This document shows positions 17,380 to 54,872 of a stretch of 64,000 bases of DNA, one piece after another (within the stretch, counting starts at the first letter, position 1; every line of letters begins with the position of its first letter). Both the position numbers and the translations under genes were made by a program. The notes under the pieces were generated by a model. The model made no database searches. It saw only the letters and a program-made list of their open reading frames with translations, and was not told the DNA's origin. Origin of the DNA: Pelosinus sp. UFO1 (lineage in GTDB: Bacteria; Bacillota; Negativicutes; DSM-13327); NCBI RefSeq assembly GCF_000725345.1, contig NZ_CP008852.1, positions 2,261,693 to 2,325,692 on the forward strand. The letters run 5' to 3'.

Positions 17380-19050
17380 ATGGATTATGTTTATCTATCT
17401 ATCCTTAGTGCGATAGCTGGAACTATCTCAATGCTACTTGTATATATTTATCTATATTTTCAGTACCGTGAACGCTATATGGGTGCCTGGGTAATATGCT
17501 GGATTTGCCATTTTTCACGAACTATCCTTTTTGATTCCGGAATATTTAACTGGAAACAATCTTTAGTCGGCTTTATTATCTATCAAATGATGTATATTGG
17601 ATGCGCTTTAATGTTTATATATACAGCTCATCTCTTTATTAACAAACCATTAAAAAAGAACTGGTTATACGGTACTGTCGGTGCGTCCATAATAAGCATT
17701 GGATTTACTTTATTGGATTTACCTATTCTTTATAAGTTGCTCATTCCTTTTGGATTTTCTTTCATTATGCTCATATGTGTAGGTAGAATTTTTATCAATT
17801 TAAAACTGAAAGGAATAGGGAAGTTAATTGCTGGATATGCATTTATCTTATGGGGCATTACTACTGCGACTGTTCCTTTTTTACTTAATATAACTGAGTA
17901 TCATTCATGGATTATCTTAATTTGTGGTATCCTTCGTCTAATTATTGCCTCAGGAACGTTATTGGTGTATTTTGAGAAAACAAGGATGGACTTAGTTAAT
18001 AAAGAAGTTCAATACCGATTACTTGCAGAAAATGCTGTTGATGTGATTTACCGCTTTAGAATACTACCTGAAGTTAAATTTGAGTATGTAAGTCCATCCG
18101 TTTTTGCGGTTACAGGCTATACTTCAGAGAATTTTTATACTGATTCGCAGCTGTTTGAAAGTTTAATACATCCGGACGATTTACTGTTGTTCAAGCAATA
18201 TACAAATAATCCTTCTTTGCGTAATCATTTACCATTTAAATATCGCTTGATACACAAAGATAAAAGCACGGTATATATTGAACAGAACTATCATCCTACT
18301 TATGATGAAATAGGCAATTTAGTGATTCGAGAAGGCATTCTTCGTGATGTCACAGCTCGTGATAACTTAGAGCAAGTTGCCGCTCATACTGACAGAATGA
18401 ATTTGCTTGGTCAAATGGCCGCCAATGTTGCTCATGAGGTACGTAACCCGTTAACTACAATACGCGGATACTTACAGATGATGGTAACCAAAGATGAGCT
18501 TAGTAACTATAGAAATCGGTTTACCCTAATGATGGAAGAGCTCGATAGAGCAAACATGATCATTAGCGAATACCTCTTATTAGCAAAGAATAAACAAGCT
18601 GAATTGAAAGAATGCTCACTAAATTTGATTGTTGATAAATTGTTTCCGTTAATTCAAGCTGATGCCGCTGCTTCAAATGTATTGGTAAAGCTCGACCTTA
18701 AAGAAATATCTACATTATATTTAGATGAAAATGAAATTCGTCAATTATTACTTAACTTGGTACGAAATGGTGTGGAAGCCATGCCAGCTGGAGGCGAACT
18801 AGTTATATGTACAGATTTAGAACAAGATAAAATTGTTTTATCTGTAAAAGACCAGGGAACTGGTTTGCCAGCTCATGTACTAGAAAATTTGGGCAAGCCT
18901 TTCATAACCACGAAAGCCAGTGGTACCGGGTTGGGCCTGCCAATATGCTATAGAATTGCCAGCAAGCACAACGCTGTTATTGCTGTTAAAACAAATGATC
19001 AAGGAACTACTTTTTTTGTTTCTTTCAACCTAGATTGCCTTGCATCATAA
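17380..19050 (+). CDS. Orphan sensor histidine kinase, PAS + HisKA + HATPase
   Basis: About 556 residues. Seven hydrophobic segments fill the first 205 residues, followed by a PAS domain (about 215-335: YRFRILPEVKFEYVSPSVFA), a dimerisation domain with the phospho-acceptor His in MAANVAHEVRNPLTTIRGYL, and an ATPase with N-box NLVRNGVEAM, DQGTGLP and GTGLGLPI. The H-region and KDELSNYRNRF layout resemble Bacillus sporulation kinases (KinB/KinE group) feeding Spo0F. No response regulator is adjacent, supporting an orphan phosphorelay kinase; that role is inference. The start may be 17368; 17380 has AGGGC at good spacing. Confidence 0.8.
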   Translation: MDYVYLSILSAIAGTISMLLVYIYLYFQYRERYMGAWVICWICHFSRTILFDSGIFNWKQSLVGFIIYQMMYIGCALMFIYTAHLFINKPLKKNWLYGTVGASIISIGFTLLDLPILYKLLIPFGFSFIMLICVGRIFINLKLKGIGKLIAGYAFILWGITTATVPFLLNITEYHSWIILICGILRLIIASGTLLVYFEKTRMDLVNKEVQYRLLAENAVDVIYRFRILPEVKFEYVSPSVFAVTGYTSENFYTDSQLFESLIHPDDLLLFKQYTNNPSLRNHLPFKYRLIHKDKSTVYIEQNYHPTYDEIGNLVIREGILRDVTARDNLEQVAAHTDRMNLLGQMAANVAHEVRNPLTTIRGYLQMMVTKDELSNYRNRFTLMMEELDRANMIISEYLLLAKNKQAELKECSLNLIVDKLFPLIQADAAASNVLVKLDLKEISTLYLDENEIRQLLLNLVRNGVEAMPAGGELVICTDLEQDKIVLSVKDQGTGLPAHVLENLGKPFITTKASGTGLGLPICYRIASKHNAVIAVKTNDQGTTFFVSFNLDCLAS

Positions 19051-49529: not shown

Positions 49530-49583
49530 GTCTTTTGCGTATAATAAATATCACCTATAGCCCTACGGTGAGGTGATGTTAGA

Positions 49584-50138
49584 ATGTCTTATGTTTGGCC
49601 GCAAGATGTGTTAACAGCCGTTGAGAATGGTGAGATATCTGTTACCCAAGCATTTAAATCTCTTCAGGAAATGGATAATAAAACAACTTATCACAAGGTT
49701 GATACTAGACAAAAGAGGATAGAGGAGATTTTATTCGAGTTAGATAATTTGATTGGACTCTTTGAAGTAAAAAAATTAGTAAGGGAAGTTTATGCCTTTA
49801 TTGAAATTCAGCGCCGCCGTGCACAAGAAAAGTTAAATACTGAGCCTCTTGTATTACATATGATTTTTAAAGGAAATCCAGGAACAGGTAAGACTACTGT
49901 TGCTAGAATTCTCGGTAAAATTCTTCGTGAAATAGGGGTTTTAAATCGAGGACACCTGATTGAAGTTGAACGAGCGGATCTTGTAGGTGAATATATCGGG
50001 CACACTGCTCAAAAAACACGGGAACAATTAAAAAAAGCATATGGTGGTATTTTATTTATTGATGAGGCATATTCCTTAGCTCGGGGCGGTGAAAAGGATT
50101 TTGGTAAAGAGTCTATAGATGTTTTGGTAAGTGCATAA
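49584..50138 (+). pseudogene. spoVK: spoVK, 5' part (interrupted gene)
   Basis: SpoVK is a mother-cell AAA+ ATPase of the CbxX/CfqX type needed for late spore maturation. This 184-residue piece holds an N-terminal helical region, Walker [15 protein letters not shown] (97-104) and Walker [17 protein letters not shown] (156-162), and ends [10 protein letters not shown] followed by TAA. VSA and the stop come from inserted DNA: normal SpoVK continues LVKAMEDHK, which is found in frame at 54474. Sensor 1 and the arginine finger are on that far piece, so this fragment alone cannot work as an ATPase. Joined at GTAA the gene would encode 313 residues, close to the 322 of B. subtilis SpoVK. Confidence 0.92.
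50119..50130 (+). repeat. Left attachment core of the spoVK element
   Basis: ATGTTTTGGTAA; the right core at 54466-54477 is ATGTTTTCGTAA. Eleven of 12 bases agree in direct orientation, inside codons D-V-L-V of spoVK. Exchange anywhere in the core restores the reading frame (Leu or Phe at position 181). Confidence 0.8.
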
Positions 50139-50150
50139 GTGCAAAGACCT

Positions 50151-50192
50151 AAAAGCCATGATACCATATAAAATATGGTATCATGGCTTTTA
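50151..50192. terminator. Bidirectional terminator at the element's left border
   Basis: AAAGCCATGATACCATAT with its exact complement around 3 nt (18-bp stem). It ends both the truncated spoVK transcript and the recombinase transcript coming from the right. Confidence 0.85.
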
Positions 50193-51719
50193 TAAAAACT
50201 TCAAATTAACTGTAAATTCCGGCTTGCTATTCCTTGCAAAAGTAGTATCAATTCGTTCGACAACTACTTTATCAAGAACAGCACGAATTGCAACCCGCCG
50301 CTCATCATCCTTATAGTATTGGGTATCCTTAAAGTGCTTTTTAATATTTATGGCGATATCCGCTAGGCTGGTTTGAGGTGCAAGAAAAGTTAACTCATTT
50401 TCCAGACTTTTTTTTGTGATCTCAATGTCAATAAGCTGTTTACTGATTTCATCTAACTGTTTTTCGGCATCGCCGCCATTAATGATATGTTGTCGAAACC
50501 ATCGTAAAATAGTTTCCTTTTGAGTGTTTATTTTCTTCTCCGTCTCTTTTAACTTGGTTAAAGTATTCTTAATAGTTGCTGTAGCAGTTGGATTACTAGC
50601 ATCTTGTGTGTATTGAGTTATTAGTTTAGTGTTTTCTGCCAGCTCACATAACTTAGACCATACTAATTCATCCAATATGAGGGTAGGGATTCGCCTAGCG
50701 GTACATTTATCATTTTCTAAGTATATATAGGATGTGCTCACTTGCGTTAAACAAGTGTAATAGCTGATGGGGTCACTACTATTTCCAGAATGTTTAATGC
50801 TCATTTTCTTACCACAACGCGCACAATAGACTAAGCCAGTTAAAAGATGATCATATTTTAAATTTCTTTTTGCAAAATTCTTGTTGGATTGCAGCTGCTT
50901 TTGCGCAGTGCGCCAGGTGATTTCATCAACAATGGCTGGCACTTTGATGGGAATCCAATCAGATTCAGGCCGTAATTCGATTCTACGAGTGCTAAAACCT
51001 GTTTTGGTAGACTTTTGCTTCATACTATAGATAACACCTCTATAGGCTGTATTGGTTAGTATACGGTGTATGCTAGACACAATCCACTGATTGCCACGGG
51101 GGGCGGGTATAAACTCATTATTTAACTTTTTACTTATGAGGGCGGTACCTAGTTTATCTTTTATACATAAATCAAATATTTGGCGTACAATAGCAGCTTG
51201 GGCTTCATTTATAATATACATGCTATTAACTTTATCATAGTCGTATCCAAAACAGCGACCATTATTAACAAGTTTACCTTGGCGAGCTTTGCCTTTTTTA
51301 CCGCGAGTTGTCCGTTCTTTAATTTTCTCTTTTTCATACGCTGATATGGCGCCTCGCATGGAGTAAAATAGTTTTCCTTCAGGAGATTCCTCAAAAGTTA
51401 CCGAAACAAAAAGTAATTTTGCTCCTGACTTTTCTATTTCATCCGTAATAATAAGCTGGTGTGCCAGGTTTCTAGCTAAACGATCAGGATCATAAATAAC
51501 AACCATATCAAATTCTTTTCTTTCTAATCCATCACGTAATTGAGAAAGGGCAGGGCGATCAATATACTCACCGCTATAACCATCATCAATAAACTCTACA
51601 AATCTTGTTGCTCCCAACTCACTTGCTTTTTGCCGATTCTCCGATAACTGAGTTTCAAGTGAATATCCCTTTTCTGCCTGATCTGCTGTGGAAACACGTA
51701 TATAAAGTGCTGCAATCAT
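50190..51719 (-). CDS. Large serine recombinase of the spoVK element
   Basis: A 509-residue site-specific recombinase. Catalytic Ser10 is in MIAALYIRVSTADQAEKGYS; the resolvase core continues with DGYSGEYIDRPALSQL and IYDPDRLARN; a recombinase domain (ALISKKLNNEFIPAPRGNQW), zinc ribbon (YCARCGKKMS, YYTC) and C-terminal coiled coil follow. It belongs to the SpoIVCA/SprA type that excises skin and SPbeta. AAAAGGAGGTATTT before ATG is a strong ribosome site. CATATAAT at 51787-51794 on its strand resembles a sigma-E -10 box, but no -35 is clear, so its sporulation control is unproven. Confidence 0.93.
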   Translation of the reverse strand: MIAALYIRVSTADQAEKGYSLETQLSENRQKASELGATRFVEFIDDGYSGEYIDRPALSQLRDGLERKEFDMVVIYDPDRLARNLAHQLIITDEIEKSGAKLLFVSVTFEESPEGKLFYSMRGAISAYEKEKIKERTTRGKKGKARQGKLVNNGRCFGYDYDKVNSMYIINEAQAAIVRQIFDLCIKDKLGTALISKKLNNEFIPAPRGNQWIVSSIHRILTNTAYRGVIYSMKQKSTKTGFSTRRIELRPESDWIPIKVPAIVDEITWRTAQKQLQSNKNFAKRNLKYDHLLTGLVYCARCGKKMSIKHSGNSSDPISYYTCLTQVSTSYIYLENDKCTARRIPTLILDELVWSKLCELAENTKLITQYTQDASNPTATATIKNTLTKLKETEKKINTQKETILRWFRQHIINGGDAEKQLDEISKQLIDIEITKKSLENELTFLAPQTSLADIAINIKKHFKDTQYYKDDERRVAIRAVLDKVVVERIDTTFARNSKPEFTVNLKFL

Positions 51720-51807
51720 AAATACCTCCTTTTAAAAAACATCTTTAGATCTAAAAAAAACTTATAATAGTGGAGTATTAATAATAATTATATGTAGTTT
51801 TAAATTA

Positions 51808-51849
51808 AGACAGCACATTATCTACTAATAAGTAGAAAGTGCTGTTTTT
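51808..51849 (+). terminator. Hairpin upstream of the recombinase gene
   Basis: AGCAC.TT.TCTACT pairs with AGTAGA.A.GTGCT, then T5. On the plus strand no gene precedes it; on the minus strand it lies in the recombinase leader region. Confidence 0.5.
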
Positions 51850-51986
51850 CTATGCTTAACACGATGGCTGATACAAAATGCCAATTGATGCACCCAACTT
51901 ATTCTAAAAAAATTAAGTGTAAAGTGGACAATCACACTATCATAAACTGTATAGAGGATTGTATCAGACAACAGGAGGCGAAAGTT

Positions 51987-52160
51987 TTGGAAACTATCAA
52001 AAGAAAAGACAAAACTGCAATATCGCCCGAAAGAAAAAAAGAGGTAAAAGTCCACTGGACTATATCAAATCAACCAAGTCAGAAAGCACTTGAAAACTTT
52101 AACCGAGTATTAGCAAAAGCTCAGTTAAGGGTTTACCGTGAATCTTTGGAAACAAAATAG
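51987..52160 (+). CDS. Small basic protein next to the recombinase (57 aa)
   Basis: TTG behind CAGGAGGCGAAAGT gives METIKRKDKTAISPERKKEV, KVHWTISNQPSQKALENFNR and a VLAKAQLRVYRESLETK end. Basic head and a helical tail, 57 residues. It is divergent from the recombinase gene, the place where directionality factors of large serine recombinases (such as SprB in SPbeta) or element regulators often lie. No sequence match to a known factor is claimed. The frame is open upstream to 51852, but the strong ribosome site fixes the TTG. Confidence 0.6.
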   Translation: METIKRKDKTAISPERKKEVKVHWTISNQPSQKALENFNRVLAKAQLRVYRESLETK

Positions 52161-52294
52161 CCGGGCTCCGGCTGAAATAAAAATGGACAGGATCGTTATC
52201 TAATGGGAAAATGGATGATAATAATTTAAAAATAAAGAAGCACTACTTTTGGGAGTAGTACTTCTTAAACTATCAGTGTGTTTAAAATTTGCTT
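52161..52294. other. Short gap with terminator
   Basis: AAGAAGCACTACT pairs with AGTAGTACTTCTT at 52235-52266; ends convergent transcripts from 51987 and 52295. Confidence 0.65.
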
Positions 52295-52423
52295 TTAGAA
52301 TTCAGTGGTATATTTGCATGCTTCACAACTTTGTACGGGCTGTCCATTTCTGATTTGTTGTGCTTGACATACAGGGCATGAATTCTCGATGGTTTGAATG
52401 TTATTTTTCTTGGTATCTGACAT
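52295..52423 (-). CDS. Small zinc-ribbon protein inside the element (42 aa)
   Basis: GAGGAGGCTTTACA precedes ATG on the minus strand. MSDTKKNNIQTIENSCPVCQ, then AQQIRNGQPVQSCEACKYTT. Two CxxC pairs form a zinc ribbon. Likely binds nucleic acid or protein; a regulator of the element is possible. Confidence 0.55.
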   Translation of the reverse strand: MSDTKKNNIQTIENSCPVCQAQQIRNGQPVQSCEACKYTTEF

Positions 52424-52668
52424 TGTAAAGCCTCCTCGTTTGCTAGATTGAATTATACCTAAATAATACCACAAGATTGTCGTTGATACAAATAATTAAA
52501 TAATAATTATTATGCGTTTATAATTAAAAAGAGTAATAGAATGTAGTACTGTAAATAATGATAGAAGACAAATTAGATACACTTTTTTGATTTTGAGTGT
52601 GATAAAATAATATTGAGCTAACAAGATTTTATAACTGTTTAAAATAGCTAGTAAAAAAGGAGATATAT
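52424..52668. other. AT-rich intergenic stretch in the element
   Basis: No gene seen; holds the leaders of 52295 (minus) and 52669 (plus). Confidence 0.4.
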
Positions 52669-52980
52669 ATGATTATTAAAAATGCTTTAGATCGAATAAA
52701 AGAAATAATACGTGGTTTAAAAACAAAAAAAGTTGAAGAAAGATTACAATCATATGCCACAATCGCGGTAATACTTAGTCGTCTAGAAGATATCAGCAAA
52801 GACCAAAAGATCCCTAATTATGTTATATTTAAACAAGATTTATTATATAGTTGTGAAGCTTTATGCGGTTTAGATGATGTTGATGGTCATTCTGAGGAGC
52901 AACATATAGGTTGGGCGTTATTGGCAGTTGATAAGCTAAAATCTTTTCATTGTTTTAATGTAGATAATCATCATATTTGA
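52669..52980 (+). CDS. Hypothetical helical protein inside the element (103 aa)
   Basis: MIIKNALDRIKEIIRGLKTK, VEERLQSYATIAVILSRLED, YVIFKQDLLYSCEALCGLDD and EEQHIGWALLAVDKLKSFHC. Helical, four cysteines, no known motif. AAAAAGGAGATATAT before ATG is strong. Function unknown. Confidence 0.6.
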   Translation: MIIKNALDRIKEIIRGLKTKKVEERLQSYATIAVILSRLEDISKDQKIPNYVIFKQDLLYSCEALCGLDDVDGHSEEQHIGWALLAVDKLKSFHCFNVDNHHI

Positions 52981-53080
52981 GCTTAAGGATATAGCTAATA
53001 AAGGGAAATGTATGGTCTTAAAGGATTAATGCAGTATTTTATAGAAGTATACATAAAATGAGATAAGGAAGTGTTTAAAA

Positions 53081-53392
53081 ATGTGTACTTCGTGTGATGA
53101 AACTTACAGAATATTTTCTGTTGAACTTATTACGAAAGAGCCTGTTAATACAAATATGGAATTATTTAGAGCGATAGCTCACAGATTATTTCAAAATAAA
53201 GTAATATCAAATATTAATATTGATAATAATAAAGCTTATAATGTTAATGGTAAGCAAATGTTTGGATTTGATCTTCATTTAGGTAATACTAACAATCCTT
53301 TGACTGTGAATCTTGAAAACGTTGAAAAAGCGCTTAATGGTCTTCTCGTTCAGTTTGCAGATTACTCTGAAATGCAAATTAAGCTTAATTAA
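53081..53392 (+). CDS. Hypothetical protein inside the element (103 aa)
   Basis: MCTSCDETYRIFSVELITKE, TNMELFRAIAHRLFQNKVIS, NINIDNNKAYNVNGKQMFGF and a helical end. N-terminal CxxC. Ribosome site ATAAGGAAGTGTTTAAAA. No family recognised. A terminator follows. Confidence 0.6.
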   Translation: MCTSCDETYRIFSVELITKEPVNTNMELFRAIAHRLFQNKVISNINIDNNKAYNVNGKQMFGFDLHLGNTNNPLTVNLENVEKALNGLLVQFADYSEMQIKLN

Positions 53393-53405
53393 ATATTTGT
53401 AAAGT

Positions 53406-53430
53406 TGGCATCCTTCGGGGTGCTTTTTTT
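53406..53430 (+). terminator. Intrinsic terminator
   Basis: GGCATCC-TTC-GGGGTGC then T8, like those at 5697 and 30524. Confidence 0.75.
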
Positions 53431-53461
53431 TATGTCAAAACAGGCGATAAAAAGCAATATT

Positions 53462-53499
53462 AAAAGTCGCCTCGCTCTTATTGAGTGAGGCGACTTTTA
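53462..53499. terminator. Second terminator-like hairpin
   Basis: AAAAGTCGCCTCGCTC pairs with GAGTGAGGCGACTTTT around TTATT (one mismatch-tolerant pair). Confidence 0.75.
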
Positions 53500-53703
53500 A
53501 GTTTTGCTAACAGATTCTCTTATCGTCACATTGGGGCAATAAATAGAAAGATGAAAAGGCTAACAGTGGTAACGGAATTAATTGTTGTTTTTTTATTCTT
53601 TCAGTCTATAAGCAACGGAACACATGTTCTCCAACGAGGAAATAAGGATAGATGAATCGCCATTTCATGTTGATCTAAAATACATTAGGATAAATTAATC
53701 CGA

Positions 53704-53892
53704 TTATCCATGCTGCTTAATAAATGGGATCTCATTAATTTGATGCTCATTCGTTATGGTTTTATAAACAGTTTTAAGACAATCCGTACATACTGCGTTT
53801 TTAATAAGAAAGTTGTTTTTTTGCTCTTCCTCGCAAAATTGTAAAAAACAATATTGTTCATGTCCGCAAATTTCACAAGTCGTATATTTCAT
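53704..53892 (-). CDS. Small zinc-finger protein inside the element (62 aa)
   Basis: MKYTTCEICGHEQYCFLQFC, then EEEQKNNFLIKNAVCTDCLK and TVYKTITNEHQINEIPFIKQ. CxxC-H-C and CxxC pairs suggest two zinc sites. GGGGGATACGAATT before the start. Second zinc protein of the element; function unknown. Confidence 0.55.
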   Translation of the reverse strand: MKYTTCEICGHEQYCFLQFCEEEQKNNFLIKNAVCTDCLKTVYKTITNEHQINEIPFIKQHG

Positions 53893-54191
53893 AATTCGTA
53901 TCCCCCTTTATTTATAGTAGTATACTGGATAAATATGGTTTTTATTCATGCAAGAGACAATAAGGCTTGCTAAGTTCATAACTCAAAATAAAAGCGAAAT
54001 ATTTTCTGAAGTAAATGTTAAATAATTGTTAGTTATTTGATTGTGGTTAAAGGAAAATAACTCCTTTTAGACGAATGTTTAAATAACTAAAAATGTTATT
54101 TTTCTTCTTCCCGAAATGTATTGATATAAATCACATACAAGCTTAATTCCTAATAGATATTATATGATTAGACGAAGTGGGAGGCGTTGGC
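53893..54191. other. Intergenic leader before the Spo0E-like gene
   Basis: No gene seen. The end holds GTGGGAGGCGTTGGC, a good ribosome site. No clear 0A box recognised. Confidence 0.4.
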
Positions 54192-54353
54192 ATGACTGAT
54201 TTAGAAATCAAAGAATTATGGGAAGAAATAGAGCAGTTGCGTAATAAACTCCATGATATTGCTAGCAAAAAAGGAATTAACTCACCAGAAGCGATCCGTG
54301 CGAGTCAATCATTGGACAATAAGATGAATGAATTTTATCGTTTAAAACGTTAA
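54192..54353 (+). CDS. Spo0E-like aspartyl-phosphate phosphatase (53 aa)
   Basis: MTDLEIKELWEEIEQLRNKL, HDIASKKGINSPEAIRASQS, then LDNKMNEFYRLKR. Two helices joined by a loop, with the diagnostic SQSLD motif of Spo0E/YnzD/YisI proteins, in which the Asp attacks the phosphoryl group of Spo0A~P. In Bacillus such proteins delay or block sporulation. It is the last gene of the spoVK element, about 120 bases from the right core, carried by the same DNA that splits a sporulation gene. Family match is strong; effect on Spo0A here is inference. Confidence 0.82.
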   Translation: MTDLEIKELWEEIEQLRNKLHDIASKKGINSPEAIRASQSLDNKMNEFYRLKR

Positions 54354-54404
54354 GTCACTTTTGTGGCTTTTTCTTTTATTCAAAAAAATATCAATATTTT
54401 AGTG

Positions 54405-54435
54405 CTATCCCTCCAATTAGAAGGATAGTTTTTTT
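54405..54435 (+). terminator. Terminator at the element's right border
   Basis: CTATCC pairs with GGATAG across 12 nt, then T7. It ends the Spo0E-like gene before the spoVK 3' part. Confidence 0.6.
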
Positions 54436-54465
54436 ATTGCATAAGCTAAAATTATATTTAATTCT

Positions 54466-54477
54466 ATGTTTTCGTAA
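54466..54477 (+). repeat. Right attachment core of the spoVK element
   Basis: ATGTTTTCGTAA, direct match (11/12) to 50119-50130; followed by the in-frame continuation of spoVK. Confidence 0.8.
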
Positions 54478-54872
54478 AAGCAATGGAAGACCATAAAAAT
54501 GAAATTATTCTAATACTAGCCGGTTATCAAAAAGAAATGGAAAATTTCTTGCAAACAAATCCAGGTCTACGTTCTCGTTTTCCAATCCATATAGATTTTC
54601 CAGACTATAACCAACAAGAATTGTTACATATTGCCGAACAAATTTGTGCAAAACGTCAATATACATTATCTTCTGATACCCAAGTCGCTTTATTAAAGCT
54701 TTTGCTTCAACAAAGTAACAGTGATGAAAACTTTGGCAATGCTCGGACGGTCCGTAATGTGATTGAGCAAGCAATTCGTCATCAAGCCGTACGTCTAATG
54801 GCTAAAGGTAATATTACTAGACAGGAGTTAATACAAATTGAGCCTGATGATTTAAAGGAGGTTAAAGAGTGA
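54474..54872 (+). pseudogene. spoVK: spoVK, 3' part (interrupted gene)
   Basis: Continues SpoVK as VKAMEDHKNEIILILAGYQK (sensor 1 region), then NPGLRSRFPIHIDFPDYNQQ with the arginine finger, and the lid helices GNARTVRNVIEQAIRHQAVR. An internal ATG at 54483 could make 129 residues but has no ribosome site, so it is silent unless the element leaves. It lacks Walker A and B. Its stop overlaps the next gene by 4 bases (GTGA). Confidence 0.92.

Follow-up and report, generated by a model that had tools for sequence, protein, structure and literature searches.

Why does the sporulation gene spoVK of Pelosinus sp. UFO1 lie in two pieces, and could the cell put it back together? We examined a window of 64,000 nucleotides, meaning the whole stretch of DNA that was analysed (bases 2,261,693-2,325,692 of a closed genome of 5,115,410 bp, which has Pelosinus fermentans JBW45 and P. 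propionicus as close named relatives). Here, spoVK, which encodes the AAA+ ATPase SpoVK, is divided by an element of 4,347 bp that encodes a complete large serine recombinase. SpoVK works in the mother cell (PMC10659427), and the coding region that is interrupted is of the same kind as in the skin, SPbeta and gin systems, namely that of a mother-cell sporulation gene. From comparison of genomes and analogy with known systems, we put a probability of about 85% on the following answer: a non-phage element integrated in spoVK would be excised via a GT dinucleotide by its own recombinase in the mother cell, rebuilding SpoVK.

Anatomy of the split gene

The split gene and its borders comprise the following features.

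49584 to 50138, plus strand: 5' part of spoVK, with Walker A and B (TIGR02881 spore_V_K, 1.6e-71)
50127 to 50128, plus strand: crossover dinucleotide GT of the left attachment site (attL), shared at both borders in a comparison of 23 elements
50150 to 50192, no strand assigned: perfect hairpin of 20 bp, terminator-like in both directions, separating the spoVK 5' stub from the recombinase gene (-28.4 kcal/mol, z -10)
50190 to 51719, minus strand: large serine recombinase of 509 amino acids (aa), with Resolvase, Recombinase and Zn-ribbon domains
54352 to 54369, plus strand: terminator-like hairpin with U-run at the end of a Spo0E-like gene (folding-energy analysis)
54474 to 54475, plus strand: crossover dinucleotide GT of the right attachment site (attR), shared at both borders in the same comparison
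54474 to 54872, plus strand: 3' part of spoVK, with sensor 1, arginine finger and AAA lid (PF17866, 6.8e-22)

As a first-pass annotation of this DNA had claimed, the 5' open reading frame (ORF) runs into foreign codons and a stop (...IDVLVSA*): the last host-derived base is at about 50128, and the stop lies three codons beyond the gene exit. The in-frame continuation 4,347 bp away was also reproduced, the distance from GT to GT being exactly this length, as was the complete recombinase just inside the border. Furthermore, computed joining of the halves gave the single frame of 313 aa that had been proposed, in which the left side supplies Walker A at 97 and Walker B at 156 and the right side supplies sensor 1, the arginine finger and the AAA lid. 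The break falls after residue 181, between Walker B and sensor 1, and the 3' part has no ribosome site of its own. The same annotation had placed terminators at both borders; hairpins are present at both (-9.5 and -7.8 kcal/mol for those on the right), but the left hairpin lacks a U-run outside its stem. A second intact spoVK, which it had named as a possible counter-finding, was absent from the genome in a whole-genome search, where other matches score at most 23 bits. A search of Rfam gave no match.

The crossover dinucleotide and the recombinase

To place the crossover, we compared the 23 elements with both borders readable. GT, usually followed by NAA, comprises the sole bases common to both borders in 23/23 elements, and because nothing else is shared in all of them, the comparison places the crossover in GT. 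Predicted rejoining of the attL/attR pairs restored the spoVK frame in all 23 cases by computation, in agreement with intact relatives, and all joined products read ID-x-(L/M/I)-V-K-x-MEDH. For the window, the predicted joined junction is GATGTTTTG-GT-AAAAGCAATGG, the rejoined residues are D-V-L-V-K, and the excised circle is predicted to measure 4,347 bp. The rebuilt stretch, DVLVKAMED, is identical to that of the intact gene of a sister Pelosinus genome (G007). Serine integrases are expected to have inverted-repeat arms around a central dinucleotide in their phage-type attachment site (attP); the attP inner arms of the elements form an inverted repeat around GT, the best with 24/26 positions (G090), at p<0.05 in 14/23 elements. 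The first-pass annotation had pointed to ATGTTTT-G/C-GTAA at both junctions as the core. The motif is there, ATGTTTT-N-GTAA matching at 11/12 bases between the window borders, but ATGTTTT was rejected as a recombination core when cross-genome alignment showed no general occurrence.

The recombinase has the resolvase catalytic domain, recombinase domain and zinc ribbon by which large serine integrases are recognised, and its catalytic residues R8, S10, D79, R80 and R83 are intact and invariant in the clade. Its nearest solved structures are the SPbeta integrase SprA/YokA and a SprA-SprB fusion, with 29-30% identity to SPbeta-type recombinases. No close relatives were found among annotated phages and in IMG/VR, distant integrases only; the best annotated-phage match among those listed was the integrase of Alicyclobacillus phage MMB025 (40.5% over 61%, 233 bits). 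In a tree of 22 readable spoVK-element enzymes and 27 further recombinases, the majority of these from the same genus, all 22 cluster together, and the only outsider that joins them is one viral-contig enzyme, which is long-branched and of uncertain placement. This enzyme, from a 41-kb IMG/VR viral contig (3300021518_000003), has 46% identity and adjoins the spoVK-element recombinases in the tree; its position may point to a phage origin.

Distribution and selection across Negativicutes

Searching 380 Negativicutes genomes, we counted 48 as having a SpoVK orthologue; the remaining matches were more distant AAA proteins. The gene is divided at the identical GT in 25 of the 48, from seven families, and unsplit in 23. 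Two of the split genomes (G005 and G009) have one half and the recombinase only, the contig ending there. Split copies occur in Sporomusa acidovorans, Propionispora sp. 2/2-37, P. propionicus and P. fermentans JBW45, among others. The comparison with intact relatives suggested by the first-pass annotation came out in its favour: G007 and others carry the predicted joined sequence without an element. Its emphasis on a compact size of 4.35 kb did not hold, this being one of many sizes from 2,969 bp (G303) to ~23 kb (G078).

Seven of eight Pelosinus genomes have a split spoVK. In the lineage of families f27 and f22 the gene is split in 8/8 genomes, and well-supported groupings agree between the recombinase and SpoVK trees; this therefore indicates that the split gene has been passed down through divergence at the level of families. 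The presence of Sporomusa-type elements (families f25, f16 and f8) is scattered and does not track the host tree, and the recombinase tree mixes families, from which we conclude that these elements still move between hosts. Fixed, mobile and empty states of the spoVK site, as read from these distributions, coexist. We also calculated ratios of nonsynonymous to synonymous substitution (dN/dS) within Pelosinus, where synonymous sites are near saturation between species and the closest pair has similar synonymous divergence for gene and recombinase. The mean was 0.10 for the recombinase (seven orthologues) and about 0.05 for each spoVK half. Because both halves and the recombinase are under purifying selection, the insertion is not a decaying one.

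Two loci depart from these patterns. In a genome with a Sporomusa-type element (G298, contig C4), the spoVK halves are 291 kb apart and in opposite orientation (734630-735202, minus; 442904-443281, plus). A chromosomal inversion probably broke this element, since htpG, which is 107-246 kb from spoVK in sister genomes, sits 17 kb inside attL; an assembly error is also possible. Recombination of attL with attR would here rebuild spoVK by inverting 291 kb. In G287 (L119, ~17500-18480), spoVK has no element and is frameshifted around residue 150, through either a sequencing error or real loss.

A candidate excision factor and its putative promoter

Three further features bear on how excision might be controlled.

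49537 to 49545, plus strand: -10-like element of the spoVK promoter, GCGTATAAT, kept upstream of spoVK in relatives (by-eye comparison, 28 loci)
51919 to 51951, plus strand: promoter-like block GTAAAGTGGACAATC...CATAAACTGTA upstream of the 57-aa ORF, kept in 7/7 Pelosinus elements and a candidate for a sigma-E -10 and a SpoIIID box
51987 to 52160, plus strand: 57-aa ORF with a TTG start and a GGAGG site, shared by 7/7 Pelosinus elements and a candidate recombination directionality factor

The 57-aa ORF is the sole gene besides that of the recombinase common to all seven Pelosinus elements. Its product has no similarity to described families, and its structure model consists of two helices (predicted local distance difference test, 79). 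The block upstream of it (GTAAAGNGGACAATC...CATAAACTGTA) is kept in 7/7 of these elements; the upstream region of the recombinase is not conserved. In the Sporomusa type, a different-looking ORF of 50-55 aa lies just upstream of the recombinase gene in one operon and is preceded in most members by AGACAACC-N7-9-GCATACGAT. Small conserved ORFs, a different one for each recombinase clade, fit recombination directionality factors.

Within the same genomes, spoIIID and spoVK are preceded by -10 boxes similar to those of the small ORFs, a similar GCATAnA box lying upstream of spoIIID. The consensus for SpoIIID is WWRRACARNY. GACAA matches the core of this consensus; sites score 8 to 10 of 10, and in some elements the best score falls at another site. 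SpoIIID itself is present in 7/7 genomes tested. By these matches and by analogy, control of the small ORF by sigma-E and SpoIIID is likely, and the small ORF with its conserved promoter block fits an excision factor under mother-cell control.

Proposed mechanism and alternatives

We infer excision, a directionality factor and mother-cell timing from comparative evidence together with precedent. During growth, the recombinase by itself would favour an integrated element. An excision factor, for which the 57-aa ORF is the candidate, would be produced in the mother cell alone, its promoter being of sigma-E (plus SpoIIID) type; recombinase and factor would then recombine attL with attR at GT, releasing the circle and rejoining spoVK into the gene for the 313-residue ATPase. 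spoVK would be rebuilt just where it is needed, and the forespore would keep the element. Finished genomes contain the integrated form, which we count for this model. The first-pass annotation had likewise proposed a developmentally excised spoVK element, and this is the best-supported reading, given the same-site splits in 25/48 genomes, purifying selection, intact relatives and the conserved small ORF with its promoter block. Some observations weigh against it. In the window's own element, attP symmetry is low (11/26, p 0.6). Neither by sequence nor by fold do the solved structures include a recognisable relative of the 57-aa ORF. The matches behind the SpoIIID and sigma-E assignments are to short consensus sequences, and a genome search with the combined motif GACAAYC-N-CATANANT returned three other, chance-like sites and identified no regulon.

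An ordinary integrative island that uses spoVK as its bacterial attachment site, excised sporadically in any cell without developmental control and tolerated since excised cells can sporulate, is an unlikely explanation. The Sporomusa-type presence off the host tree agrees with it, as it shows that elements move between hosts, but this explanation sits poorly with vertical retention in 7/8 Pelosinus and 8/8 f27 and f22 genomes, with conservation of a promoter block ahead of the small ORF alone, and with the likeness of the -10 boxes to those of spoIIID and spoVK. That the insertion is dead, spoVK being inactivated and sporulation lost or independent of it, would suit a genome without an intact second copy, yet we consider it very improbable in view of dN/dS of about 0.05 in both halves, an in-frame junction in 23 genomes and a recombinase with an intact active site constrained at 0.10. 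Slightly less credible still is separate translation of the halves to act as a two-piece AAA+ protein. Both halves are conserved, which speaks for it, but the 3' half begins inside the fold with terminators ahead and no ribosome site, the break separates Walker B from sensor 1, and close relatives have intact copies.

Cargo of the spoVK elements

Between the spoVK halves of the window lie the recombinase gene and about six small ORFs, of which the following, all also found in G008, are cargo.

52295 to 52423, minus strand: ORF for a 42-aa CxxC...CxxC small protein
52669 to 52980, plus strand: ORF with ribosome site, 103-aa protein of unknown function
53081 to 53392, plus strand: ORF with ribosome site, 103-aa protein of unknown function
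53704 to 53892, minus strand: ORF for a 62-aa cysteine-rich protein
54192 to 54353, plus strand: Spo0E-like small protein of 53 aa (Pfam PF09388, 4.1e-15)

Studied members of the Spo0E family dephosphorylate Spo0A. In another Pelosinus genome (G004), the spoVK element encodes a Cache-PAS sensor histidine kinase (L051 4930-7062). It is possible, judging by these two predicted proteins, that Pelosinus elements carry regulators of sporulation entry.

Cargo elsewhere is diverse: a LarA-family racemase and an MFS transporter (G296), ThiG and ThiH (G092), pyruvate:flavodoxin oxidoreductase, phosphate butyryltransferase and butyrate kinase (G302), molybdopterin oxidoreductase, ferredoxin and MFS (G290), chemotaxis proteins (G090), and an Ssp/BREX-like defence cluster of SspB-, SspC/BrxC- and PglZ-like proteins with a methyltransferase (G305, L102 7903-18912). 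The f27 and f22 elements retain a set consisting of a secreted protein of ~255 aa and a DEDDh exonuclease with SWIM finger, to which those of f27 add a DUF2271 protein and a 61-aa zinc-ribbon protein. Retention of this set at dN/dS of ~0.1 (exonuclease, 255-aa and zinc-ribbon proteins) and 0.24-0.41 (DUF2271 protein) suggests that the cargo is under selection.

PHROGs and Pfam scans found no phage structural, packaging or lysis genes in the window element. Among the families shown for 28 cargo proteins of four sister elements there was no terminase, portal or capsid; a single tail-fibre family matched, its source protein not traced. After these scans, we rejected a prophage identity for the elements.

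Comparison with known systems

As no packaging or capsid genes were seen in the spoVK elements, the nearest concept is gin rather than a prophage. The gin element interrupts gerE of Bacillus cereus ATCC10987, measures 28.6 kb, has three recombinases and is excised in sporulation (PMC5595907). Like gin, the spoVK elements hit a mother-cell sporulation gene, lack phage genes and combine a large serine recombinase with a small extra factor (GirC/GirX in gin, a candidate ORF here); unlike it, they range from 3 to ~23 kb, typically have one serine recombinase and are common to many genomes of one class. In Clostridioides difficile skin, located in sigK, the excision factor CD1234 is under sigma-E and SpoIIID and the recombinase CD1231 is constitutive (PMC5025042). 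The spoVK element resembles skin in its serine recombinase, in its candidate small factor and in having a mother-cell gene as the one that would be rebuilt; sigma-E/SpoIIID control of the factor, not of the recombinase, is proven in skin and predicted here, and skin differs in being prophage-like and experimentally proven.

SPbeta in spsM of Bacillus subtilis (SprA/SprB) uses a 58-aa factor to drive excision in sporulation (PMC4191935). Its SprA is the nearest solved relative of the window recombinase and its small factor would have a counterpart in our 57-aa candidate, whereas SPbeta is a phage that is active and has structural genes. Further mother-cell genes with intervening elements are known, namely yin in yabG of Clostridium botulinum, which is prophage-like (PMC10747680), and vfbin in spoVFB and vrin in spoVR, described as prophage-like in work cited by PMC4191935. 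Alicyclobacillus phage MMB025, a 105-kb phage integrated in sigK (PMC13141910), has a related integrase and a sporulation-gene target, but it is a real phage in a different gene. We found no report of an interrupted spoVK in the literature searched, whose coverage excludes most subscription papers.

Significance

Programmed excision from sporulation genes is a known kind of event; what is new is the target gene, a single class-wide site with one recombinase group, and the non-phage cargo. With the excision proposed here, spoVK would join the short list of sporulation genes rebuilt in this way, and the phenomenon would extend to the diderm Negativicutes. As one att base pair and one recombinase group can be traced across seven families, with fixed, mobile and absent states side by side, a direct comparison becomes possible of how a parasite in a developmental gene turns into a permanent part of the programme. 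Elements of this kind need not be dying prophages: they can also be accessory islands whose cargo serves metabolism or defence. More speculatively, and with the odds somewhat against it, spoVK may be a class-wide docking site of Negativicutes, at which unrelated cargo rides on one recombinase chassis at low host cost, since the element would leave only in the dying mother cell; where it is fixed, the split gene might act as a timer of SpoVK and the cargo, Spo0E-like in the window, might feed back on sporulation entry. The cargo so docked would span metabolism, chemotaxis, defence and Spo0E-type sporulation regulators.

Gene neighbourhood

The genes at the locus are in the order mutS, mutL, miaA, an hfq-like gene and spoVK; all but spoVK are presumed identities, named from ORF translations.

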